A stretch of 30,681 bases of DNA, from the NCBI GenBank assembly GCA_016748015.1, contig JAAOMT010000168.1, positions 1-30,681 on the forward strand, given 5' to 3'. Shown piece after piece: positions 2,589 to 28,650 of the stretch; within the stretch, counting starts at the first letter, position 1, and each line of letters opens with the position of its first letter. Under the pieces are notes generated by a model, which was given only the letters and a program-made list of their open reading frames with translations, was not told the DNA's origin and ran no database searches. A program made the translations under genes and the position numbers. The DNA is from Geosiphon pyriformis. Its lineage: Eukaryota > Glomeromycota > Glomeromycetes > Archaeosporales > Geosiphonaceae.

Positions 2589-4088
2589 ATGACATCCCAG
2601 CAATTCTTTCACGCTTTATCCCATGATTTTGGGAATTTACTAGATAGTCAGGATTTTTCTGATGTTAAGATTGTCGTTGGAGAAGTGCCTAATATCAGAA
2701 CTTTTCAGGCACATTCGCAAATTTTAGCAGCAAGATCACCGTATTTTGCTGTAGCACTCTCTAGTAATTGGGTCAAAAGGGAAAATAATACCATTATCTT
2801 CTCTAAACCTAATATTTCACCCAATATTTTTGAGATAATTCTCAGGTAAGGTTATTCATTTGCTTCAAAGTATTTTAGTCAATATAAATTTATACGTTTT
2901 ATTTTCCTGCACAGATATATTTATAATGGTGAGATTTCTCTTGACGAACATCGATTACCTACCATTTTAGAATTCCTTGTTACCGCTGACGAGCTTATTC
3001 TAGAAAACCTGATTGATTACCTTGAAGACTATTTGATTGAACACCGTGCAAAAGAGCTAGAAGAAAATTTCGCCACTTTGCAGAAAACTTCATTTATGCA
3101 TGATTCTTTCAAAAAGTTACAAAATTTCTGCATCGAAATAGCTGTTACCAATCCAACTATAGTCTTCAACTCCCAAGATTTCACCTCCCTTAGTGAAAAG
3201 GCTCTTTCCTCAATTTTAACCCGGGATGACTTGGATATAGAAGAATCTGAAATATGGGAAAAGATTGTGGAGTGGGGAGTTGCTAAATTGGATAATGACA
3301 TTCGGATGAAAAAGGTTCTTTGCTGGACAGATGAAAACTTTAACGCCTTTAAGGAATCTATTGAAAGACTTCTACCTTCAATCCGCTTCTTTAACATATC
3401 TTCAGTTGACTTCTATCACAAAGTAAAACCATTTGCGAGAATCTTACCTGGAACTTTATATGAAGATCTTTTACATCATTATCTCGTACCGGGTAGTCGT
3501 CAAGAGTCTGTAGACGCTCAGCCATTACGTTGTTCTCGATTTAACATTGATTCAAAGCTTCTTCGATCGCATAATATAAGACAGCTTGATCATTGGATTC
3601 AAGGCAAAGACATAAATACTCCTTTTGAAAATCCACTTGGAAATGATCTTAAGCTGTTACTTCGAGGCAGTCGAGATGGATTCACTCCAGGCGATTTTCA
3701 TCGATTATGCGATGATAAAGGAGCAACAGTTTGCATAATCAAAGTGAAAGGAACTGGTCAGCTAATAGGCGGCTATAACCCACAATCTTGGGACTCTCGA
3801 AATACAAATTTAGATGGAGAAGACAGTTTTATCTTTTCCCTTGGAGATGGGACACTTGGAAATGCTAAACTTAGTAGATTTGTTAACGGACATGGACCTT
3901 ATAGTAGTCCAACTTGTGGACCCTGTTTTGGATATGGCAGTATTGGATTGTATGGCAATGATTTCAGAACTAGTCCAAGGTGCTATTGTAAAAAGACAAC
4001 GAGTTATCATCATGATATAATGCCTGGATCAGAAAAGGTGAATTTCTTTGTTGAGGAGTATGAAATTTTTCAAATCAAAAATAAATAA
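2589..4088 (+). CDS. BTB-BACK-TLDc domain protein, two exons, intact
   Basis: Exons are 2589-2845 and 2915-4088, joined across a 69-nt intron (GTAAGG...CACAG) that splits an Arg codon; the product is 476 residues. An N-terminal BTB/POZ domain covers about residues 15-115 (DFSDVKIVVGE, FQAHSQILAARSPYF, then YIYNGEISLDE just after the splice). A BACK-like helical region follows at about 140-240, with EIWEKIVEWGVAK. A TLDc domain covers about 325-474 (SRDGFTPGDFHRLC, GQLIGGYNP, SFIFSLGDG, GPCFGYG) and ends with the typical VEEYEIFQI strand. BTB-BACK proteins are usually Cullin-3 substrate adaptors. TLDc domains are linked to oxidative stress resistance and V-ATPase regulation. This architecture is greatly expanded in Glomeromycotina; the target of this member is unknown. 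The ATG at 2589 is chosen because it places the BTB fold about 20 residues in and matches the family's start. No disruption is seen. Confidence 0.93.
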
Positions 4089-8606: not shown

Positions 8607-9780
8607 CTATTTGAGGAATCTCTTTAATTTTGTTCCGAAATAATTGATCCTATGGAGATGTCTTCTCATATTGCATTCCTATAAAATGGTTTGTAGTAAA
8701 TTTAGGATACTAGATCAAAAATCACCTCATTTTCATGTGGAGTACCTGTAGGAAAACATAAATAAATCTTTGGATTTGAGCAGTCACATTGATATTCTAT
8801 CCAAATTTCTTTTTGAAAGTATCTGTATAAAATGCTGGAAAATATCGAATTTTTATGTGTAAGCCAGATTTTCCATGATCAAACTCCTCAATTAAAAAAT
8901 TAGGCATTCCAATCATCATCATAAGTGACACTTGAAACTTTTTGAATCAAGTGTTCGGTTTAATGCACAAATATTTCGTGGTTGACCAAATGTAATAAAA
9001 CTTATTTATGCTTTAAGATACTTCCTTTTATATTCAAGTGCAGCATGTATGAGCGAAGACTAAAGTAAAAAACTTTATAAATTTTTAATTATCAAAAACA
9101 AATTCATTTACCAGCTCCAATCCGAAGCTGGTAAAGGGTTCCTAAAATAGAGGTACTATTTATTGCCAACGCTCATAAATTTCTTTCAAAAAATATTCTT
9201 CTTCTACATGTGGGTAAGGTACGATATCGCGCATATTGCGTATTTTATATTTAAAGATAGAATTCCAATTATAGAATGAAGCATAATAAAAGAAATTGTC
9301 ATTCCTAAAATTATTACTATTTTTCAAATAATTATTGAAATAAATTTGAGTTAAAAAATTTGCTTCCCTTTGTGAAAAATAATAATCAATATAGAATAAC
9401 CCTAAATTCGATTCGCCTAAAAGAGAAGTTTTCATTCGTTTGATTAACTTTTTTGACAATATGCAAAAGCCGCATTTGAAGCTAGCTCACGCAAAAAATT
9501 TTCATCTTCAATAATCTCTTTTATTAGTACTCGATATATTAATGGGTTGGGTAAAAAGATTTCTTTTTTGAATAGGTTCAGTGATAAAATTTTTCTGCTT
9601 AAGAAAATGCGAGCCTTAAATCGGTTTGAAATTAATTTTAGATATATTATTAAATTTCTTGAATTAAATTCTCTCTTTTAATGTTGCAAAAATAACAAGC
9701 TCTTTTGGCTGTAATCAGTTTAATTTTGTAAAGAGGAGAAATTAGAATCAATAGAGAAAAGAATGAGATTGGAATAGGTA
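8607..9780 (-). pseudogene. Class 3 lipase-like pseudogene (third copy)
   Basis: Pieces occur in the same order as in the two other lipase-like genes. They are: a hydrophobic stretch near 9760-9700; then ELASNAAFAYC near 9500; a frame at 9459-9160 aligning with the central region (NMRDIVPYPHVEEEYF); the elbow region FTSFGLEL, ending at 9112; then a 52-nt intron (9111-9060); then TFGQPRN near 8980; then LTHKNS, EIWIEYQCDC and, after a 47-nt intron (8725-8679), ECNMRRHLHRINYFG with a stop at 8609-8607. Introns after the elbow (phase 1) and before the Glu-Cys-Asn motif (phase 0) match those of the intact copies. Several frameshifts and stops separate the pieces, and no start codon joins the N-terminal part. 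The nucleophile position appears to be Gly, and the catalytic Asp position appears to be Ser. It is divergent from the lipase-like gene at 10028. Family assignment is firm; details of the decay are approximate. Confidence 0.72.
9107..9135. repeat. 10-bp perfect inverted repeat over a splice donor
   Basis: TTTACCAGCT at 9107-9116 and AGCTGGTAAA at 9126-9135 form a perfect 10-bp stem with a 9-nt loop. On the minus strand one arm contains the donor GTAAA that follows the elbow codons of the lipase pseudogene. Confidence 0.8.
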
Positions 9781-9903
9781 AAATATTTTAAAAATTAATT
9801 TAGAATGTGAAAAATTCTCAAATTTTATCAAGTATCAAAAATAAATGAACTGGTTCCGGAGCTAATCTTTGGAATCTATTTATGAAAAAATTCGTCAATC
9901 TAT

Positions 9904-9926
9904 CAACAACAACAACAACAACAATA

Positions 9927-9974
<48 letters not shown>
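9904..9974. repeat. Compound (CAA)n/(TAA)n microsatellite
   Basis: About seven CAA units run into about sixteen ATA/TAA units. It sits in the roughly 250-bp gap between the divergent lipase pseudogene and the lipase-like gene, 54 bp before the ATG of the latter, and so lies in its promoter or 5' UTR. Confidence 0.95.
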
Positions 9975-9977
<3 letters not shown>

Positions 9978-10027
9978 GCTAGACATTGGCTCATTCTTTT
10001 ACAATTTTGAGTTATTTTAACAAAAAA

Positions 10028-11612
10028 ATGGTTTCTTTTTGGAAGAAAAATATAACTCTTCAAGTATCCAAAAAGACTTTTAACCAAATTTTGGTTGCAA
10101 AAATCATAGCGATTAATCTTTTTATCATTTTCATAAATTTTTTGTTTCGTTCAAAAGTATTAAGCCATGATTATTTGATACAAAATAAATCAAATTTTAA
10201 TTCTTTTAATCACTCACAATCTATTTCATTGACTAAAAAAAATTTAACCGAGAATTGGCTGATTTCAAAAGATGAAAACTTAAAAAATAGATATGAAAAA
10301 AACTCTTTCATAAAAAGGAATTCACTTGGTCCTTTATATAAAAAAATTCTAGTTCAAGATAAAGATATCTTGAAATTTTTTGCTAGCAAGGCAAATTTAG
10401 CCTGGACAGCGCATTGCCATCTAAAATATTTAAGTGACCGGGGCAATGGTAAGTATAAGAATTCTTCAAAGATTAACTTTTTTCTATCCTAAATAATACA
10501 TTTGAAACCTCGTTTTTGAATCAGTTAAATATAGGGCCGCGGCTTTTTTCTTAGCACATGACCAATCGAAAATCACGTTCAGTTTTGCAACGACCGTTTT
10601 TCACAAGTTTTCCAATTTAGCATTCGTAAGCAGAGGCACCCATAATCCAGCTATTCAATTCCCAAATGTACCTGGTGCCTGGGTTGTTCGCCGTGCTTAT
10701 CGAAAATGGAAAACTTATACTGAAATAAATTTTTTTCGTGGTTTTCGAATGTATTTGACGAACTTATCGATCCAGCCTGATTTTTCTGACTTTGAATTTA
10801 CCGGATTTGGTGAAAGCAGTTGTAAGTTTCTTCTTTCTTTTAAAAAAGAAAAGTAAAAAAAATTAGACGATATAATCATTTAATTTTCATATCAAATTTT
10901 TTCTTTTCAAATTAGCCTATCCAATCTTTGCTGCTCTTGAATTTTCAGCAAGATATCACCCGAAAAAGAAGCCGATTGTTGTTACTTTTGGCCAGCCGAA
11001 AATAGGAAATGAAGTTTTTACTGCTTTTGCTCACTCCAAGCTTGAGGTAAATATATTAATTGTTAGTTTGAAATATTAAAAAATTCTGTCGGAATTTCCA
11101 ATTGAAACCGAATTTCTAGATTTTTCGCGTCACACTTGCAGACGATTTACTACCATTAACACCCACGAGAGGATTAAGAAAATTTTCCAAGTGGAGTGAT
11201 AAAAATGAGAGATTGAATGCGATAGCAGCACATGAAGAGTACACACATTTTAAACCAGAGTTTTGGATCGAAAATGAATCAAATTGTGCTTGCCCGAAAA
11301 ATGTGTACCCAATTGTGTACAAGTGCTATAACACGCATTCCTTCATGGAACATCCGGTACGAATTAGAATTTCAATTTTTCAAAAATATTGAAAAATTTT
11401 ATGCTTTATTAATGGTTTAAGCTTTTTAGGAATGCAATAGTCGTGATCATGACTTTAAAACTTCTCAGACGATGACAATCTTCGATAATGAAGATGAATT
11501 TCGTTATGGACCATATTTTGGCAAAGATTTTATGGATTGTCAAAATGCAAGTTCAGATAATATCCGAAAGGTCATTTATCAAGAACTAATTGCAGGCAGA
11601 AATGATTTTTAA
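10028..11612 (+). CDS. Class 3 lipase-like protein lacking the nucleophile Ser, five exons
   Basis: Exons are 10028-10448, 10525-10821, 10916-11046, 11120-11356 and 11430-11612, joined by GT-AG introns of 76, 94, 73 and 73 nt into 422 residues. The first ATG in the open frame is used. A predicted signal anchor spans about residues 21-40, suggesting a membrane-anchored or secreted product. The alpha/beta-hydrolase core is recognisable: RGTHNPAIQF (the oxyanion-side strand region), the elbow FTGFGESS, VVTFGQPKIGNEVF, ADDLLP, EFWIENES, and the C-terminal GPYFG. Class 3 lipases use a Ser-Asp-His triad. Here the Ser position is Gly236, the Asp is kept (Asp292), and the C-terminal His position aligns with Arg387. 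Lipase activity is therefore unlikely; the fold may bind lipid or have another role. All splice junctions preserve frame and there is no internal stop, so it appears functional as a gene. A possible AATAAA poly(A) signal lies at 11626-11631. Confidence 0.85.
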
Positions 11613-13040
11613 TCTTTTTTCACAAAATAAATATGATATTCAAATATTTTAAATATATTTATATGAAAGTAAATGCAACTTTTTAAATGTGTCAATAACT
11701 TATTTTACCTAAAAAATTATTAAAGGATAACTTTTTTATCACTCTAATATTTTTTTCCTAAAAATCTCAATATTATTTAAAAAGGAATGCTATATCACTA
11801 CTTTGTAGTCTACAATTTATTTGTGAGTGATAGCTTTGAAAAAAAATTTTAAGAGAATTCTCAAATTTTAATTAATGAAGTTGAACCAATTGAAAAATTA
11901 ATTTAACGTCATTTTAATATCTTTGATTTATAAATTTCACATATTCAGAAATTTTATTTTCCCTTAAGATGAAGATATTTCCTATTTTTAGATAATTATT
12001 AGCATGAAATACTTCCAAGTTCTTCAATTCCAAAAAATTATGAATTTTATTTCTAAATCTACTATTCCCTTCATCATCCTCTTATTGAAGCAATCTTATC
12101 ATTAAAGTCATCAAATGGTATTAAATAACTGGATTAAAGGTTGCAATAATTATGAAAATAAAAGTGTTTAATTTTTCTAATTGTATAAAAGTTTTTTTTA
12201 AAATTCATGTTTTTACAGTTGCTTTAACAAAAATCAAAGAATTTATTATATATAAATAAAATAATATATTAACCAATTTTAATAATAATATGTTATTTTA
12301 GTTTAAAAAATATACAAATTTATAATATTTTATATACCATTTTTTGCAATAATAAATGAATAATATTTACGCAAAACTATGCAAATTGTTATATATATAT
12401 ATATATATATATTAATAATATTTTGTAATTATACTTTGTTTTTCTGCTACTTTTTTTATAATTGTTTTAATAATCTATTTTTAAGTTACAATAAATACCT
12501 ATTTTTTATGTTAATTTTATATTGTATAAGACATTTTTAAATTTTAAACAAATTTACAAATTTTTTTATAGCATTCCATTTTTAAAAGAAATTTTGGCAG
12601 TTAGTTTGAATATCATTCATTAAAAATAATGTTACTTGTAGTTCTAAAATAAATCAATATTTTCATTTCCAAAATACATCCATGAATATATATTTAAGAA
12701 TACGATTGTTTTTATACATTTTATAATGTTTTCATTAAACATTTAGTTTTATTTTATTTTTAATAAATTCTTTTAATTCATTATAATAATTCCACATAGA
12801 GCTTTACCAAATTTGAGGCCCTAAGTTAGATGACATAATTCATCGATGTCAATGATTTTAAGCTTAAATTCAAGTCTTAAAAACAACGTCTTACTATTTG
12901 TCAAAATGAACTAAGAATTTTTTTCTTCAAGATTAAAATGACTTTTAAATCTTTTTATATCACAGTTTCTTTTGCAATATTATACCAATACTGATTATAA
13001 TAAGCTGTAGTTTTTTGACTATAGAATAGTAAAAGAAAAT
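11613..13040. other. AT-rich intergenic stretch
   Basis: No gene-like frame seen. It contains an (AT)n tract of about 11 units at 12391-12412. Its start presumably holds the 3' UTR of the lipase-like gene. Confidence 0.6.
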
Positions 13041-14165
13041 GTGAATCCATACCAAGTAGAGTTGCTCAGTAGTAAATGTTCTTTTAGCCACTGGAAAGTA
13101 AGTTTTGTCGATTGTAAGGCAAATATTTTTATTACCCGAGACATTTTACATGGCTTAACTCGTGATCCATCTTCGGCTCCTGGTCCAGCTCTCGCATCCA
13201 AAGGTGTCGAGGTGGTTAAGGCTAATTTATCAAATAGCAAAGATGTGGAGCGAAATACATCAATTGTAATAATTTATATGACAAATTTGTTAAAAAGTAA
13301 TAAGTAATTCATTAACTGATCTTTTATTAGATGTATGGGAGAAAAAATTTAAGATTCATCACAAATTTAATATGAATTTCACCAAAGATCTTTTGTTTCA
13401 ATTATATTTCACTCTCTGATGCAGATGCCAGATCAAAAGGACTTACAATAATGCTTTTCACTTAACAGAGATTAAGCAAATTTCTTTACTATAAAGAAGG
13501 CTATGTAGAAATAAAAGTCCCAATTTTTCAGGCTGACTTTTTGATACTTATTTTTAATGCTCTCAATAATACAAAGGTAAACATCTAATATAAAGTTTTA
13601 TTAAAAAATGGGTTTAAATGGTTGATATTTGATGATTAATTATCACTTTTAGTTTTCCAATCTTTTTTTTAACCAATTGTAGCTAAAATAATCGAAAGAC
13701 CACAGAAATGGAATTGAAAAAGTGTCAGAATACATTATCTTTTAAGAAATTGTCGAAACTTTGACCAAAGGTAACTGAAATGACGTTTAATATTTCACTT
13801 AGACACAACTTTCTAATCCAAATTTCCAAAAAGAATTTTACAAAAATCCCATTATTATCATATATTAAGTGACGGGTAAAGAACATCGTTTCATCTCACT
13901 TTCTAAAAAGGAAACTGCCAAAGAGGCTCCGCACTTGACAAATGATGAAATATTTCATATGTTAGTGATCGCAAAACTTTTTATCTTTAATGTTTCATTA
14001 TCAATATTAACTTCTAATTTCATATAATTCTTAATACTTGATTTTCATATGACAGAATAGATGAGATCAAAGGATTTTGGATACTTTGAAGGAGATGCGG
14101 CTCTTAATGATCTTTCTATCATTACCTTTGAACAGTATGCTCAAAGAAAGTATGGAGAAAAGTAA
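13041..14165 (+). pseudogene. NmrA-like (Rossmann-fold) protein remnant
   Basis: The 5' piece at about 13152-13304 reads GLTRDPSSAPGPALASKG followed by VEVVKANLSNSKDVE. This is the hallmark beta-strand/NADP-side region of NmrA-like proteins, where a 'TRDP' motif precedes 'GVEVVxADLxDxxSL'. A later piece at 13869-13970 reads VTGKEHRFISLSKKETAKE and then DEIFHM. The last piece, 14061-14165, reads DFGYFEGDAALNDL and ITFEQYAQRKYGEK before a stop; it resembles the family's C-terminal 'YYG...TFEEW' end. The region between 13305 and 13868, and the region before 13150 where the GxxGxxG dinucleotide-binding loop belongs, are not recognisable. Frames change between pieces and a TAA precedes the second. 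NmrA-like proteins are NAD(P)-binding redox sensors or reductase relatives. I judge this a decayed copy; an unusual exon structure is the alternative. Confidence 0.55.
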
Positions 14166-15240
14166 ATTATTGAAAAATGAACTTGATTGTTGTTGGTTCA
14201 TGATATTATGGATGTTCTCAATCAAATTAATCTTGGGGTTAATTTTTTCGAATAATTTGTTGTGAATAAAATTTATGTATTGATGTTTTCAAGAATTCAA
14301 TTTCAATATTGTAAGCCTTACTAATACTTTTTGAAAAAAATATAACTTATTTATCTATCACGTTAGAAATGTAAAATTTTACACCTTTCGCCTTAAATCT
14401 GAATCCGATTTTCAGGGGAAACCAAATCCCTGTTTGATTTAATCGACAGAATTCCTATCTTATAAAGTGAAAATCTAGAGCCTTTGAGTTTTTAAAAAAA
14501 ATTAAAATTCTATTCATTGAAACGTACAAAAAATATTTTAAGTTAATTATATTCTTTTTATTATATTTTTCCAAGTTAACAAAATATTTCAATTTCCAAT
14601 CTATGTATAAAAAACTCAAGATTAAGCCATATATTAATACTAGTGCTTCTCTAACTCATTGAAAATTCATGCCTGATATTCATTAAATCAGTTTAAAGCC
14701 AGATTTTATATTATTTACAATTCTATATTTTTTAAAATTAATATTTGGAAGGAATGATTCATTTTCAAAAATAATATAAATTAAACTGAAAAACTTAAAA
14801 TTTGAAAACTTTGTTTATCAGTATGGGGTTTGTTTTAAAATATTGGAAAGCTCTTTGACATTTAATAATCATTTGATATTTTGCTTCAAAAATTAACAGC
14901 CATATACTTTAATTATTGAAAAGGCTATAGTTATTTTTAAAAAGATTATTATGCATAAATAATTTTATTTTAATTGATTTTTTGCTAAAAGATTTCAAAA
15001 TATTTTTCGTATAAATTTAAATTGGTTCTTCTAAATCTTATGTAATTTTAAACGAAATAAATTTAATATTTAGAAGGCAATCTATTATTGGACTTAGGAA
15101 TTCAAGGACATGGAATACTTGAAAGAACGCGATCGTTTCAAAATACTCGAGTTACGATAACAGTTACAAAATTTTTACCACCATGAATTTATCCTCTCTT
15201 GTTAAATCCCAAAAGTCAGAAAAACTCCCAAGAAATAAAT
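14166..15240. other. AT-rich intergenic stretch
   Basis: No coding-like frame, RNA gene or repeat recognised. It separates the 3' ends of the NmrA-like remnant (+) and the lipase-like gene (-), which are convergent. Confidence 0.55.
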
Positions 15241-15341
15241 TTATACTTGATTATCACAGCGTCCCATTGTAACCCCAAAATAAGGACCAACATGAGCCCA
15301 TGATTCCAAATCATCAATTGTCCCCTGATTACATTCCTTTA

Positions 15342-15383
<42 letters not shown>

Positions 15384-16691
15384 ATCAAAATCATATAGAT
15401 GTAATTTAGCAAATTTGAAAATCAAATAAACCATAGCAAGCGATCTCCGTTATTTACCTGATTCTCACCATGTGTTGCACCCCACTTTGGTCGATATCCT
15501 CGGCAGTTAAAATAAACATAGCCACCCTCTATAGTTTTTTTGTTAAGACAATCGCATTCATCATGCGTTAACCAAAACTCTCTATCATGGTGTAAAAATT
15601 TTGGTGGTGGATGAAATGAGCGAGGGACGTAATCATTTGAATGCGTTATTCTTTGCACTTTCACAAATTGGTTGAGAAAGATAGCAAGTGAAACATCACC
15701 AATTCGTGGCTGACCAAATGTTGTGACTAGTATTTTTTGTTAATTGAACCATTGTTAAAACAGTGGATCTGATAATAGAGAGCGGCGAGAACAGCATAAG
15801 CTAAATTTTATTCAGAAATTATTAAAAAAGATTTACATTGAATCGCCCAAAATTAAAAAATCATAAAAATTTTAAAATTGCAAAATGAAATATGAAACTT
15901 ACCACCACCAACTCCATGTCCAACAAAATTTAAATCAAAAGAAAGAAAAGGATCAAGCTTTTCAATAATTTCCCCTTTCATTTTTTTTACATCCTCATTC
16001 CATACTGAATCTACATATGTTTGATTTAAATATAGTTTTCCTTGTTTCAATAATTTAAAAGTTATACGTGCCAATTTAACTTCTCGAGTTTCCCATTGCA
16101 TACGGGATAACATTTCCCCAACGAAATAAATAATCACGCGATTATGTCTTTTGTCAAAAACAATTTCAAAGCTTGGGGCTATTTTTCAAAAAGAATTTTA
16201 ATGTAATTTCAATATAATATCAGGATTTTTAATTGAAATTCAGAAAAAGTACATTTTGGTTTTTGCGTAGTCCTTTTTCTTCCATTAGAATTATCCACTG
16301 TTTCCGTGCAATAGGCCATATTAGCGTATTGTGCAACATGAAACATTAAAAGTTTATAGGCATCGTTCAAATTTTGTACCGTTCTGTATGGATAAGGTGG
16401 AAGGTTTTGATGTTCAGGATTAAGAGAGGGATGAGGACTCTTATTCCGAATTCTTTTATAAATTCTTGGACGTTTATCGAAAGTCATTGAAAGATTTGAA
16501 TTTTTATTGATTGAATATTGAATCTGTTGATATATAAAAGTTTTCTCGAAACTTTTATTAACCAGAGAAAATTCATTTTTTGAAAATATTTCATATTTAA
16601 TTTGAAAATTATTCAAAAATAAAAAAAGTATCAGGGAAACCTGACTAGTTAATATAATAAAAATTTTTTTAGTTATATTGAAAGTTTTCAT
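15241..16691 (-). CDS. Class 3 lipase-like protein lacking the nucleophile Ser, four exons, one frameshift
   Basis: On the minus strand the exons are 16691-16253, 16178-15903, 15800-15458 and 15336-15241, with introns of 74, 102 and 121 nt. The ATG at 16691 places a predicted membrane anchor at residues 10-26; an upstream in-frame ATG at 16757 is less likely. Conserved blocks are FHVAQYANMAYC, FEIVFDKRHNRVIIYFVG, NFVGHGVGG, TTFGQPRIGDVSLAIF, ITHSNDYVP, DREFWLTHDECDC, and ECNQG through AHVGPYFGVTMGRC. The elbow Ser is replaced by Gly235, while the Asp (about 295) and the C-terminal His (about 368) are kept. Exon 3 is one base short of frame: the shift lies between the ALYYQ and TTFGQP blocks, most simply at the A6 run (T6 on the plus strand, 15733-15738). 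Either the gene is freshly inactivated or a base was lost in sequencing or assembly. Counting the missing base, the product would be 384 residues. Intron 3 carries an (ATT)n tract. Confidence 0.8.
15342..15382. repeat. (ATT)n microsatellite in a lipase intron
   Basis: About 13-14 units. It lies a few bases from the 3' splice site (AATTAAAG) of the last intron of the minus-strand lipase-like gene, so length variation here could affect splicing. Confidence 0.93.
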
Positions 16692-18608: not shown

Positions 18609-18693
18609 AACCTTATTTATTAACAAGAAAAACTCCTTTAAAAATCCTTTACCCATAACAAAATATTAAATCTATTTGTGTTGCTTGAAAATC

Positions 18694-20409
18694 ATGTCTT
18701 CAATTTCATCGATTGAAAACGCAACTTCACCCCTCGACTGGCTTGAAGGAACATTGATTGTCATCCAAAAAAATTTGGCCATTTTTCCAGCCAGTAAATA
18801 TTCAAAGGTTGCTGAATTAGTGAAAAACTATCTTTTGCGCAATCTGAAAACACCAAAAGATTTGTTCGATTGCTTGAATAAGAAAAATTCACAGTGTTTG
18901 ATAAATAATATTTTACTCGGCTTTTCTTTAGAACATGGGATTGGAACTATTCCTAATTTAACAAAAGCATTTCTAGAATATCAAAAAGCAGCGAAGGCAA
19001 AAAATTCTTTTGGACAATTCTTCTTAGGTTATTGTTATGATAATGGAATTGGTACTTCACAAGATCAAGGAAAAGCATTTGAACTCTATTCAAAAGCAGC
19101 AGAGGTGGGACATACAAATGCACAAGAAAGTCTTGCAAATTGTTATCTGAATGGAAGGGGAACAACAAAAAATTCAGAAAAAGCATTTGAACTTTATTCA
19201 AAAGCAGCAGAGGCAGGACATTTAAAGGCACAATATAATCTTGCACTTTGTTATGATAATGGAGAAGGAACGATAAAAAATTCAGAAAAAGCATTTGAAC
19301 TCTATTCAAAAGCAGCAGAGGCGGGACATTTAGATTCACAATACAATCTTGCAGTTTGTTATGCTAATGGAGAAGGAACGACAAAAAATTCAGAAAAAGC
19401 ATTTGAACTCTATTCAAAAGCAGCAGAGGCGGGAGATCTTGATGCCAAATACAATCTTGCACTTTGTTATGTTAATGGAAAAGGAACGACAAAAAATTTA
19501 GAAAAAGCATTTGAACTTTATTCAAAAGCAGCAGAGGCAGGAGATTTAGATGCACAATACAACTTTGCACTTTGTTATCTTAATGGAAGAGGAACGACAA
19601 AAAGTTCAGAAAAAGCATTTGAGCTCTATTCAAAAGCAACAGAGGCGGGGTATTTAGATGCACAATACAATCTTGCACTTTGTTATGCTAATGGAAAAGG
19701 AATGACAAAAAATTCAGAAAAAGCATTTGAACTTTATTCAAAAGCAGCAGAGGCAGGACATGTAAATGCGCAATACAATCTTGCACTTTGTTATGTTAAT
19801 GGAAAAGGAACGACAAAAAATTTAGAAAAAGCATTTAAACTCTATTCAAAAGCAGCAGAGGCAGGACATTTAAATGCACAAAACAGTCTTGCAAATTGTT
19901 ATCTTAATGAAAGGGGAACTACAAAAAATTCAGAAAAAGCATTTGAACTTTATTCAAAAGCAGCAGAGGCAGGACATTTAAAGGCACAATATAATCTTGC
20001 ACTTTGGTATGATAATGGAGAAGGAACGACAAAAAATTCAGAAAAAGCATTTGAACTCTATTCAAAAGCAACAGAGGCGGGGTATTTAGATGCACAATAC
20101 AATCTTGCAGTTTGTTATGCTAATGGAGAAGGAACGACAAAAAATTCGGAAAAAGCATTTGAACTCTATTCAAAAGCAGCAGAGGCGGGAGATCTAGATG
20201 CACTATATAATCTTGCAGTTTGTTATAATAATGGAGAAGGAACGATAAAAAATTTAGAAAAAGCATTTGAACTCTATTTAAAAGCAGCAGAGGCGGGACA
20301 TTTAAAGGCACTATACAATCTTGAATTTTGTTATGCTAGCGGAGAAGGAACGACAAAAAATTCAGAAAAAGCACTTGAACTCTATTTAAAACAGAGGCGG
20401 AACATTTAA
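18694..20409 (+). CDS. Sel1-repeat protein A, 3' end frameshifted
   Basis: An intronless frame of 571 residues. The ATG at 18694 is chosen because gene B starts at the equivalent ATG (MSS-SSIENATSPLDWLEG). Residues 1-90 form a domain that I do not recognise. A degenerate repeat follows at 91-126, then twelve 36-residue Sel1-like units (KAFELYSKAAEAG..AQYNLALCY.NG.GTTKNSE), each exactly 108 nt. Sel1 units are paired antiparallel helices, TPR-like, that act as protein-interaction scaffolds. In the thirteenth unit four bases are missing near 20390 compared with the other units (LYLK then QRR instead of LYLKAAEAG). This shifts the frame to an early TAA, while further repeat sequence continues out of frame to about 20480. 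The protein may still be made in shortened form. Partner and function are unknown. Confidence 0.88.
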   Translation: MSSISSIENATSPLDWLEGTLIVIQKNLAIFPASKYSKVAELVKNYLLRNLKTPKDLFDCLNKKNSQCLINNILLGFSLEHGIGTIPNLTKAFLEYQKAAKAKNSFGQFFLGYCYDNGIGTSQDQGKAFELYSKAAEVGHTNAQESLANCYLNGRGTTKNSEKAFELYSKAAEAGHLKAQYNLALCYDNGEGTIKNSEKAFELYSKAAEAGHLDSQYNLAVCYANGEGTTKNSEKAFELYSKAAEAGDLDAKYNLALCYVNGKGTTKNLEKAFELYSKAAEAGDLDAQYNFALCYLNGRGTTKSSEKAFELYSKATEAGYLDAQYNLALCYANGKGMTKNSEKAFELYSKAAEAGHVNAQYNLALCYVNGKGTTKNLEKAFKLYSKAAEAGHLNAQNSLANCYLNERGTTKNSEKAFELYSKAAEAGHLKAQYNLALWYDNGEGTTKNSEKAFELYSKATEAGYLDAQYNLAVCYANGEGTTKNSEKAFELYSKAAEAGDLDALYNLAVCYNNGEGTIKNLEKAFELYLKAAEAGHLKALYNLEFCYASGEGTTKNSEKALELYLKQRRNI

Positions 20410-20556: not shown

Positions 20557-21282
20557 TTCATGGACATCATAAAAGCGCCACATGCAAATACATCCTTGAA
20601 TGCTATGGAACCACAAAAGACGTTACAACTGATTAATTTGCTATGGTTCTACCATTTGCCGAATATGGGGACCTTAGAAATTTTCTCGAGAACAACGAAA
20701 ACACTCTTATTTGGGGCATGTTTCTTCGTATTATTTTTCAAATCGCCAGAAGCCTAAGATTTATACATGCATCAAAACTGGTGCATGGGGACTGGCATCC
20801 TGAAAATATCTTTGCATTGAAAACGAACCCCTTAATAGTTGTCATTTCTGATCTTGGACTCTGTCGTCCTGCAGATGACACTCCACAGTCTGGAAAAATT
20901 TATAGTGTTCTTGAGTATCTTGCGCCCAAAATTTGCAAAGGGGGTTTTGGACTAAGTATAGCGATATATACAACTTTGCCATCATTTCCAGTGAAATTAT
21001 TTCAGGAGAAAGACCTTTGAATAATACAGATTCTATTTACGTGCAATTTGATGTGATTTATGAAAGCGTCCTATAATCAAAAAACATACACCTCAATGTA
21101 TTCACGTATTCTCGTGATACTGCAAACAGCTTCAACATAGAGTTATTGCTGCTCGTGATAATTGTAACTTAAATCAACCCATCCGTGAAAAAATACTTTA
21201 TTCTGACGAGACACAAGATGCTATGCGAGACAAGATACAGAAGCCGGTTAACCTCAAAACCAGGATTTTCTACAAATGGTAA
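20557..21282 (+). pseudogene. Protein kinase domain pseudogene, 5'-truncated
   Basis: Starting just after an acceptor-like TTTATATAG, the frame reads HHKSATCKYILECYGTTKD, a TAA stop at 20634-20636, then MVLPFAEYGDLRNFLENN, the helix-E region, the catalytic loop VHGDWHPENIF, ISDLGLCRP and EYLAPK. After a frameshift near 20945 the kinase continues as KYSDIYNFAIISSEIISGER. Another shift precedes RPIIKKHTPQC, and coding-like sequence runs on to a TAA at 21280-21282. This is the tyrosine-kinase-like type common in these fungi. The glycine loop and ATP-binding Lys are absent, so the 5' end is missing. The catalytic loop is HGD rather than HRD, the DFG motif is DLG, and APE is APK. It cannot encode an active kinase. 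It lies 76 bp after the decayed Sel1 tail. Confidence 0.85.
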
Positions 21283-26215: not shown

Positions 26216-28300
26216 TCAATAGAAATCTTCAAGATTGTTGTGTGCACCTGTACTTTCCACCTCTACTGCTTTTGAATATACTTCGAAAGCTTTTTCCTCG
26301 TTTTTCGTTGTTCCTAATCCATTTAGATAACAATTTGCAAGATTGTGTTGTGCGTCTAGATCACCCGCCTCTGCTGTTTTTGAATAGAGTTCGAATGATT
26401 TTTCCACATTTTTCGTTGTTCCTAACCCATTTTGATAGCACCATCCAAGATTGTTTTGTGCCTTTAAATGCCCCATCTCTGCTGCTTTTGAATATAGCTC
26501 AAATGCTTTTCCCTCGTTTTTCGTTGTTCCTAATCCTTTTTGATAGCACCATCCAAGATTGTTTTGTGCCATTATATTACCCGCCTCTGCTGCTTTTGAA
26601 TATAGTTCGAATGCTTTTCCCTCGTTTTTCATTGTTCCTAATCCTTTTTGATAGCACCATCCAAGATTGTTTTGTGCATTTAAATGTCCCATCTCTGCTG
26701 CTTTTGAATATAGTTCGAATGCTTTTCCCTCGTTTTTTGCCTTTAAATGTCCCACCTCTGCTGCTTTTGAATATAGTTCGAATGCTTTTTCCCCGTTTTT
26801 CGCTGTTCCTAATCCATTTTGATAGCACTGTCTAAGACTGTATTGTGCCATTTTATGACCCGCCTCTGCTGCTTTTGAATATAGTTCGAATGCTTTTCCT
26901 TCGTTTTTCGTTGTTCCTAATCCTTTTTGATAGCACCATCCAAGATTGTTTTGTGCCTTTAAATGTCCCATCTCTGTTGCTTTTGAATATAGTTCGAATG
27001 CTTTTCCTTCGTTTTTCGTTGTTCCTAATCCATTTAGATAACAATTTGCAAGAAAGTATTGCGCATCTAGATTTTCCATCTCTGCTGCTTTTGAATAGAG
27101 TTCGAATGCTTTTTCCTCGTTTTTCGCTGTTCCTAATCCTTTTTGATAGCACCATCCAAGATTGTTTTGTGCCATTATATTACCCGCCTCTGCTGCTTTT
27201 GAATATAGTTCGAATGCTTTTCTCTCGTTTTTCGTTGTTCCTAATCCATTTTGATAGCACCATCCAAGATTTTTTTGTGCATTTAAATTTCCCACCTCTG
27301 CTGCTTTTGAATATAGTTCGAATGCTTTGCCCTCGTTTTTCGTTGTTCCTAATCCATTTAGATAACAATTTGCAAGATAGTATTGTGCATCTAGATTTTC
27401 CGTCTCTGCTGCTTTTGAATATAGCTCAAATGCTTTTCCCTCGTTATTCGTTGTTCCTAATCCTTTTTGATAGCACCATCCAAGATTGTTTTGTGCCATT
27501 ATATTACCCGCCTCTGCTGCTTTTAAATAGAGTTCAAATGCTTTTTCTTCATTTTTCGTTGTACCTAATCCTTTTTGATAGCACTGTCCAAGATTGTTTT
27601 GTGCACTTGGATTCCCCGCCTCTGCTGCTTTTGAATAGAATTCGAATGCTTTTCCCTCGTTTTTCGTTGTACCTAATCCTTTTTGATAGCACCATCCAAG
27701 AGTGTTTTTTGCATAGATATCTCCCGCCTCTGCCGCTTTTGAATAGAGTTCAAATGCTTTTTCCTCATTTTTCATTGTTCCTAATCCATTTTGATAGCAC
27801 CATCCAAGATTGTATTGTGCCATTTTATTACCCGCCTCTGCTGCATTTGAATATATTTCAAATGCTTTTTCCTCATTTTTCGTTGTTCCTAATCCTTTTT
27901 GATAGCACCATCCAAGATTTTTTTGTGCTTTTAAATTTCCCGCCTCTGCTGCTTTTAAATAGAATTCGAATGCTTTTCCCTCGTTTTTCGTTGTACCTAA
28001 TCCTTTTTGATAGCACTGTCCAAGATTATTTTGTGCACTTTGGTTTCCAGCCTCTGCTGCCTTTGAATAAAGTTCGAACGCTTTTCCCTTATTTTTCGTT
28101 GTTCCTAATCCATTTTGATAGCACCATCCAAGATTATTTTGTGCACTTGGATTTCCCGCCTCTGTTGCTTTTAAATAGAGTTCGAATGCTTTTCCTCTAT
28201 CTTGTGAGACACCAATTCCATTGCTATAACAATCACCTAAAAATAATTTTCCAAAAGAATCCTCTGCATTTGCTGCTTTCTGAAATTCTAAAAATGCTTT
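26216..28300 (-). repeat. 108-bp coding tandem repeat array (Sel1 gene B)
   Basis: About 19 units of 108 bp in one frame. Units at 27544-27221 closely match those at 27220-26897, a three-unit (324-bp) higher-order duplication. One unit is shortened by 45 bp. Confidence 0.9.
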
Positions 28301-28570
28301 TGTTAAATTAGGGATAGTTCCAATCCCATGTTCTAAAGAAAAGCCGAGCAAGATATAGTCTATCGAACGCATTGAACTTTTATTATTTAAGCAATCGAAT
28401 AAGTCTTCAGGTTTTTTCTGATTGTGCTCAAGATATATTTTCACCAAGTTAGCAACTTTTGAATATTTGCTAGCTGGGAAAATGGCCAAATTTTCTTTGA
28501 TGACAATCAATGCTCCTTCAAGCCAGTCGAGGGGTGAAGTTGCGTTTTCAATTGATGATGTTGAAGACAT
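26216..28570 (-). CDS. Sel1-repeat protein B
   Basis: An intronless frame of 784 residues, paralogous to gene A and convergent with it. The first 126 residues match gene A closely (SSIENATSPLDWLEG, LAIFPASKYSKVA, LLGFSLEHGIGTIPNLTKAF). These are the unnamed N-terminal domain plus one degenerate repeat. Eighteen further units follow with consensus KAFELYSKAAEAG..AQNNLGWCYQKGLGTTKNEG, then a partial unit. All are 36 residues except the fourteenth (26788-26726), which has only 21 after an in-frame 45-nt loss. The stop at 26218-26216 falls inside a repeat unit, and repeat-like sequence continues beyond it, so the original protein was probably longer. Sel1 arrays act as interaction scaffolds. The role here is unknown. 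The long plus-strand open frames opposite this gene are by-products of the repeat periodicity. Confidence 0.92.
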   Translation of the reverse strand: MSSTSSIENATSPLDWLEGALIVIKENLAIFPASKYSKVANLVKIYLEHNQKKPEDLFDCLNNKSSMRSIDYILLGFSLEHGIGTIPNLTKAFLEFQKAANAEDSFGKLFLGDCYSNGIGVSQDRGKAFELYLKATEAGNPSAQNNLGWCYQNGLGTTKNKGKAFELYSKAAEAGNQSAQNNLGQCYQKGLGTTKNEGKAFEFYLKAAEAGNLKAQKNLGWCYQKGLGTTKNEEKAFEIYSNAAEAGNKMAQYNLGWCYQNGLGTMKNEEKAFELYSKAAEAGDIYAKNTLGWCYQKGLGTTKNEGKAFEFYSKAAEAGNPSAQNNLGQCYQKGLGTTKNEEKAFELYLKAAEAGNIMAQNNLGWCYQKGLGTTNNEGKAFELYSKAAETENLDAQYYLANCYLNGLGTTKNEGKAFELYSKAAEVGNLNAQKNLGWCYQNGLGTTKNERKAFELYSKAAEAGNIMAQNNLGWCYQKGLGTAKNEEKAFELYSKAAEMENLDAQYFLANCYLNGLGTTKNEGKAFELYSKATEMGHLKAQNNLGWCYQKGLGTTKNEGKAFELYSKAAEAGHKMAQYSLRQCYQNGLGTAKNGEKAFELYSKAAEVGHLKAKNEGKAFELYSKAAEMGHLNAQNNLGWCYQKGLGTMKNEGKAFELYSKAAEAGNIMAQNNLGWCYQKGLGTTKNEGKAFELYSKAAEMGHLKAQNNLGWCYQNGLGTTKNVEKSFELYSKTAEAGDLDAQHNLANCYLNGLGTTKNEEKAFEVYSKAVEVESTGAHNNLEDFY

Positions 28571-28650
28571 GATTGAATATTTTGTATGTGTAAAGAAGAA
28601 TTATTGAAGAGTTCGTCTTGCTATTAAATAAGGATTTCAATCTATAATCA

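Follow-up and report, generated by a model that had tools for sequence, protein, structure and literature searches.

Class 3 lipases and lipase-like proteins with Gly in place of the catalytic Ser

Fungal class 3 lipases, represented among solved structures by what we take to be the enzymes of Thermomyces lanuginosus (PDB entries 1dt3 and 5ap9) and Rhizomucor miehei (1tgl and 4tgl), use the Ser of a GxSxG elbow as nucleophile, and most members of the Pfam family Lipase_3 have Ser at this elbow. Without the Ser, the acyl-enzyme of the lipase reaction cannot form. Here we analyzed a stretch of 30,681 nucleotides from the fungus Geosiphon pyriformis (assembly GCA_016748015.1, contig JAAOMT010000168.1, positions 1 to 30,681 of the forward strand; hereafter, the window), in which three class-3-lipase-like copies, namely gene 1, gene 2 and a pseudogene, have Gly in place of the Ser. 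We found that Gly outnumbers Ser about 3:1 among the lipase-like copies of this genome, that the Gly-bearing copies are under constraint, and that gene 1 belongs to a set of genes most of which stand head to head with a second Gly subfamily. The lipase fold thus seems to have been retained and multiplied here for some role besides the usual hydrolysis of fats.

A Thermomyces lipase of solved structure, 1gt6, lacks the Ser (elbow GHALGG) and was the top PDB match of a profile of the Gly proteins; it is presumably a laboratory-made single change to Ala, unlike the natural Gly lineage. The plant immune proteins EDS1, PAD4 and SAG101 contain a class-3-lipase-like domain without lipase activity, together with an EP domain, and work in pairs, EDS1 and PAD4 keeping the Ser-Asp-His triad; we know of no head-to-head gene-pair origin for them. 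The EP domain was absent from gene 1 in a Pfam scan at E ≤ 1, where the sole match besides Lipase_3 was to RNA_pol_Rpb5_N and fell below threshold. EDS1/PAD4/SAG101 form an obligate heterodimer; the pairing observed here is one of genes. With the fungal class 3 lipases the Gly proteins share the fold as judged by sequence (E 8e-14), the elbow strand and turn, TFGQP, the Asp motif and HxxxEYW, and gene 2 and most of the Gly elbows read also share the C-terminal H-x-GPY. They differ in having Gly for the Ser nucleophile and, in gene 1, Arg for the catalytic His. Among the literature titles and abstract openings searched, with most subscription journals and all preprints outside the scope, no Ser-to-Gly class 3 lipase of these fungi was found.

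Gly at the nucleophile position of the three window copies

Gene 1 (10028 to 11612, plus strand) encodes a class-3-lipase-like protein of 422 residues. GT-AG splicing joins five exons (10028-10448, 10525-10821, 10916-11046, 11120-11356 and 11430-11612) into one open frame, in which the elbow reads FEFTGFGES-SSYPIFAALEF. The codon at the nucleophile position is GGT, Gly (10809-10811, in TGFGES), that at the catalytic Asp position is GAT, Asp (11144-11146, in RVTLADDLLP), and that at the catalytic His position is CGT, Arg (11502-11504, in DEFRYGPYFG).

Gene 2 lies on the minus strand (15241 to 16691) and was recognized by splicing, a Lipase_3 match and its ECNQGTIDDLESWAHVGPYFG exon. It has four exons (16253-16691, 15903-16178, 15458-15800 and 15241-15336), the ends of the last two being set by eye. 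Across the elbow intron the protein reads NFVGHGVGG-AYAVLAALYY, with GGA, Gly, at the nucleophile position (15913-15915, in VGHGVGG), Asp at the catalytic Asp position and CAT, His, at the catalytic His position (15292-15294, in AHVGPYFG). The frame is open through the elbow. It is broken inside the third exon, at a run of A that falls after the post-elbow helix and before TFGQP, where the frames of four close relatives are open; gene 2, named as a gene in the first-pass annotation, is not intact. Both genes belong to the Lipase_3 family by Pfam score (gene 1, 30.7 bits; pieces of gene 2, 22.2 and 34.0 bits; cut-off, 22).

The pseudogene (8607 to 9700, minus strand) has stops in all three frames. 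It matches the profile of the second Gly subfamily, which we call the partner profile, at 9163-9312 (E 4e-11), and the codon at its nucleophile position (9121-9123) encodes Gly in TSFGLE, read as TSFGLEL. It is the decayed head-to-head partner of gene 1. The interval between them (9701 to 10027), in which a simple (AAC)n/(AAT)n run occupies about 9904-9973, would be a shared divergent promoter region, to judge from the head-to-head pairs elsewhere in the genome. The window copies had been described as a cluster of lipase-like genes; they do not make up a single tandem array. Gene 1 and the pseudogene are the two members of a divergent pair whose arrangement is conserved, and gene 2 comes from a different subfamily.

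To place the elbow on known structures, we searched the PDB. Gene 1 as a single sequence had no match at E ≤ 0.001. A profile of nine Gly proteins (five partner-type, two gene 1-type and two gene 2-like) matched 47 distinct sequences at E ≤ 1, the best being the Thermomyces lipase (1gt6/5ap9/1dt3), and the profile elbow FtGfGvga lay without a gap over FTGHSLGG (FTGHALGG in 1gt6), so that Gly, and no alternative Ser, takes the nucleophile position. The earlier reading of Gly at the Ser position in all three copies (TGFGES, VGHGVGG and TSFGLE) was thereby confirmed, by splicing and by lipase alignment, and the sequence alignment to solved lipases put no other Ser on the nucleophile, a placement that had been named as fatal to that reading. 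As aligned, then, Gly occupies the nucleophile position of the lipase elbow, and all three copies lack the Ser of GxSxG that a class 3 lipase needs as an enzyme.

A Ser-bearing paralogue from the same genome (contig C401; labels of the form C### denote contigs and L### loci) aligned with the Rhizomucor lipase 1tgl over its whole length (E 3e-39). This alignment gave the catalytic columns, counted on the alignment as S144, D203 and H257 of 1tgl, which we take to be its catalytic residues. The His of HxxxEYW (column 277, present in 110/110) was considered as the catalytic His and rejected, because the 1tgl alignment places the catalytic His in H-x-GPYFG. An AlphaFold prediction for the partner protein of L117, made from a contiguous reading that crosses the elbow intron and from nine exon rows, had a mean predicted local distance difference test score of 33.9 and yielded no usable model.

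Gly is the majority state in the genome

The genome (124.7 Mb in 406 contigs) contains at least 163 Lipase_3 exon matches. We read the elbow residue in the best 80 Pfam-ranked loci, the upper part of 150 ranked rows, with second exons of one gene omitted. Gly was found in 52, Ser in 18 and another residue in 9 (Ala 2, Asp 2, Asn 3, Cys 1, Arg 1); one locus, L097, was unread. Six of the loci were read by eye: L056 (a gene already read as L033) and L130 have Gly, L046 and L060 Ser, and L124 and L089 Asn. Since the Pfam family is mostly Ser at the elbow, this sample should favor Ser, and among the lipase-like copies of this genome Gly still outnumbers it by about 3:1.

The exact elbow GHG[IV]GG, searched with a pattern that omits the Val codon GTG, occurs 181 times genome-wide and never in the backward control, so the Gly elbow is not a product of chance. 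A wider pattern, GHxxG[GA], gave 96 matches against 12 backward, with Ser in 60 of the 96, other hydrolase families included. We also aligned 141 rows, made up of 114 of 118 elbow matches and 27 spliced models; 41 rows had been found by the Gly query, 28 came from the gene 1 and partner loci and the window, and the rest were found by Pfam (L038, L124 and L130, which offered no readable piece, were left out, and the alignment does not contain the gene 1 model of L107). The nucleophile column contained Gly in 112 rows, Ser in 16, Ala in 5, Glu, Arg and Asp in 2 each, and Asn and Cys in 1 each. Because 125 of 141 rows lack Ser, this column does not behave like one that has to supply a nucleophile. 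Most homologues having Ser, with Gly only in decaying copies, would have told against the first-pass annotation; within this genome that is not the pattern.

As a control, the Gly profile was used to collect Lipase_3 loci on viral contigs. Ser was present in 18 of 19, which shows that the profile alone does not select Gly. The sole Ser-less locus among them, L184, lies on a viral metagenome contig and has the elbow GHGLGG. Prokaryote genomes scanned with a fragment of a Ser paralogue yielded no relative.

In a tree of 143 columns built without the elbow columns (60 of 138 inner branches unresolved), 10 of the 16 Ser rows form one clade (Shimodaira-Hasegawa-like approximate likelihood ratio test [SH-aLRT], 91) and the remaining six lie dispersed over the tree. 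L137 is among these six and groups with four Gly rows in a set of five (SH-aLRT, 98). The scattered Ser rows may be reversions or survivors, as far as the tree can tell. At least 18 changes among three elbow states are required, and Gly may therefore have arisen more than once. The two window genes fall in all-Gly sets. Natural Ser and Gly neighbors in one clade offer a ready comparison of the effect of Gly at a nucleophile elbow.

Two further features of the alignment and the genome were seen. A C-x-C...C arrangement (columns 300, 303 and 324) is present in 98-99% of the Gly rows versus 5-6 of the 16 Ser rows, several of which are gapped there; the cysteines are possibly an extra disulfide or a metal site marking the Gly lineage. 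Lipase_3 matches are crowded on a few contigs (C227, C252, C329, C370 and C401).

Gene 1 belongs to a conserved divergent gene pair

Twenty-two matches gave a gene 1-type set of 18 loci, the window and 17 others; two rows represent one locus (C226), and three weak matches were placed outside the set, being partner-type genes at C92 and C302 and a short piece at C351. At the catalytic His position the 18 loci have Arg in ten, Leu in two, Thr in two and His in two, with two unread (L114 and L116). Four loci (L101, L102, L103 and L107) read RHGPYF, where a His one place later could substitute; window gene 1 has none there. The reason is that the Rhizomucor lipase (1tgl) has one residue fewer between the catalytic His and YFG.

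In 14 of the 18 loci, a member of the second Gly subfamily (TFTGFGxGA) is encoded upstream, in the opposite orientation. Ten of these partners were modelled (L101, L104, L106 to L109, L112, L113, L115 and L117), one (L105) reaches a gap in the assembly, and three are decayed (L103, L114 and the window). The model of the L106 partner is irregular. Distances among the gene 1 halves correlate with those among the partner halves over the ten modelled pairs (Mantel r 0.89, 0 of 5000 permutations). Apart from two close pairs, L101-L107 and L113-L115, the gene 1 halves are only about 40-53% identical, so the pairing goes back a long way and its halves have been passed on jointly. The His of H-x-G[PS]YF is present in all ten modelled partners, in the L103 and L114 remnants and in one partner at L110. 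Window gene 1 is thus the widow of a pair, its partner having decayed to the pseudogene.

The Gly-bearing copies are under constraint

The Gly rows of the 141-row alignment have a median identity of only 30% (1500 sampled pairs), and the catalytic Asp column is Asp in 112/112 of them, as in 16/16 Ser rows and 12/13 rows with another residue. For the catalytic His, we took 59 exact GHG[IV]GG elbows from contigs C8 to C227; a 60th (C227:250569), which also has the motif downstream, is outside the count. An exact H-x-GPYFG followed 250 to 1100 bases downstream in 33 of the 59, and in 8 of 15 Ser elbows. Reading the remaining 26 Gly elbows by eye, we found His in 20, Asn in 3 and Pro in 1, and did not find the motif in 2. 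The catalytic His is kept, then, in 53/59 Gly elbows (four without, two not found) and in 12/15 Ser loci (one Asn, two not found), the latter being 15 of the 18 Ser loci, with L127, L046 and L060 left out.

The nucleophile position uses every one of the four Gly codons (GGT 45, GGA 44, GGG 6 and GGC 4 in 99 rows), which indicates that the site took many silent changes and stayed Gly. By the Nei-Gojobori method, the ratio of nonsynonymous to synonymous divergence (dN/dS) is 0.42-0.52 when gene 1 is compared with its three nearest relatives, 0.37-0.86 for the ten closest gene 1-type pairs, 0.37-0.63 for the 14 closest partner pairs, and 0.35-0.68 for the gene 2 clade, with one further value of 0.13 at saturated dS. 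The proportion of nonsynonymous differences is below that of synonymous ones (pN < pS) in 120/120 pairs of the gene 1 subfamily and 45/45 pairs of the partner subfamily. The dN/dS comparison of Gly copies that had been proposed earlier thus gave values mostly of 0.4-0.6, indicating constraint.

These results bear out the proposal that a Gly-bearing lineage is retained and expanded: most family members in this genome have Gly, the tree places both window genes in sets made up of Gly rows only, and pN is below pS in 165/165 pairs. The Gly copies have lost a catalytic residue and their coding sequence is constrained, the two marks of a pseudoenzyme, and the description of the Gly proteins as non-catalytic is likely but not certain to be right, Asp and His being better kept in the Gly class as a whole than a scaffold held over from the lipase would lead one to expect.

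Proposed lipid binding by pseudolipases and the alternatives

We propose that the Gly proteins are pseudolipases that bind or sense lipid, an acyl ligand being held uncut in the former active-site cleft, and that gene 1 with its partner acts as a pair; we give this explanation as a whole about an even chance. The nucleophile residue of a lipase sits on a strained turn, and Gly relieves strain. It was probably favored here because it relaxes the turn once catalysis is abandoned. Gene 1 is the half of the pair without Ser and His, the partner type retains His and Asp, and the two halves would be co-expressed and act jointly, probably as a heterodimer. A very large, constrained family with a lipase cleft but no cutting residue is a candidate for lipid binding or sensing.

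The setting is compatible with such a role. The fungal type I fatty-acid synthase (FAS) domains PF08354 and PF18325 had no match in the genome, where a ketoacyl-synthase locus is present, and the fungus probably relies on outside lipid. Missing FAS domains fit an arbuscular mycorrhizal lifestyle without proving it; arbuscular mycorrhizal fungi live on lipid from the plant host, and the uptake route is an open question. A hydrophobic N-terminal segment (19-residue mean hydropathy of at least 1.6) is present in gene 1, in gene 2 and in 14 of 17 gene 1-type models, the window included. In gene 1 it covers residues 21-39 with a value of 2.54 (maximum after residue 80, 1.05) and in gene 2 residues 10-28, and by hydropathy it fits a signal peptide or an anchor.

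A wider version of the proposal would have, in a fungus lacking a type I FAS of its own, most class 3 lipases, some 180 or more, without a nucleophile but with an Asp-His pocket, and part of them working as co-transcribed divergent pairs of an Asp-His and an Asp-only protein, either as a two-component system that captures, ferries or senses lipid from the host or the environment or as a Ser-independent enzyme class. We consider this version possible but doubtful. A mean of 189 lipases in Glomeromycotina fungi is given in a 2025 report (PMC12574304). If the Gly proteins are indeed not lipases, domain-based lipase counts would misjudge such fungi.

Several observations weigh against the proposal. 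A missing FAS match does not establish absence. No partner was found in the fetched stretch at L102, L111 and L116 (3 of 18 loci), and at L110 (C302:74500-80400; 1 of 18) a partner, a gene 1-type gene and a second partner stand in tandem on the same strand. Stops interrupt the gene 1 half in three of the ten modelled pairs (L106, L107 and L113). The Mantel value for the distances of the two halves leans on the two close pairs named above. Block duplication, and not selection on pairing, could account for the persistence of the pairs. A dN/dS of 0.4-0.6 is not tight constraint, and the retention of Asp in 112/112 rows and of His at 53/59 elbows goes beyond the need of a pure scaffold.

This last point bears on the first alternative, catalysis without Ser. 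An Asp-His dyad with the oxyanion pocket would carry out a different reaction, the His acting as a general base towards water or a carbon of the substrate. Catalysis without the nucleophile does occur in engineered Ser-less lipases and in some relatives among the alpha/beta-hydrolases, the Asp and His here are kept about as well as in Ser rows in spite of a median identity of 30%, and the Ser row L137 lies inside a Gly set, as if the machinery still accepted Ser. On the other hand, the gene 1-type proteins have mostly lost His and still keep Asp, so that the Asp may be structural; the nucleophile site has Ala, Glu, Arg, Asp, Asn or Cys in 13/141 rows; and GPY beside the His seems, though uncounted, about equally conserved. 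Because Asp and His are so well kept, we rate Ser-independent catalysis as fairly unlikely but do not set it lower.

The second alternative, which we regard as unlikely, is a lipase-fold adaptor or receptor for protein contact and signalling, resembling EDS1/PAD4/SAG101, in which a heterodimer would work with no need of lipid. Divergent gene pairs that are conserved and whose halves differ in their active sites would suit such a role, and the Gly profile did match EDS1 and PAD4 in the PDB (E 3e-8 to 1e-4). These matches are, however, far weaker than those to fungal lipases; gene 1 has no EP domain and only Lipase_3 above the Pfam cut-off, and the N-terminal hydrophobic segment suggests the secretory route.

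Decay of dying duplicates, with Gly as one of several changes at a dispensable site, is very improbable. Individual copies have indeed decayed, as seen in the pseudogene at 8607-9700, the broken frame of gene 2, the partner remnants at L103 and L114, and the stops in the three gene 1 halves noted above, but decay as the general explanation is largely refuted by constraint: pN is below pS in every pair, Asp is invariant in the Gly rows, the Gly elbow recurs 181 times and, L116 apart, the gene 1-type models outside those three are open as far as they were modelled. An artefact, in which Ser is restored by RNA editing or alternative splicing or the nucleophile is supplied by another part of the chain or by the partner subunit, is suggested by the intron directly after the elbow in the genes of the window and in those relatives that were modelled, but its probability is next to negligible, with the Gly codon inside an exon, Gly in 112 aligned genes and no Ser column above 60% in the Gly rows of an alignment that covers neither terminus and mostly omits the post-elbow helix.

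Other genes in the window and the genome

A single Hint domain match was found in the genome, against the large Hint-domain expansion described for Glomeromycotina (PMC8778642). Within the window, an open frame at 2850-4088 (plus strand) encodes BACK and TLDc domains. Two inverted Sel1-repeat genes, at 18670-20409 (plus strand) and 26216-28600 (minus strand), have 12 and 18 Sel1 stretches, respectively, in units of 108 bases and resemble each other at 78% over 1.7 kb. Behind the first lies a frame with a kinase domain (20637-21020).

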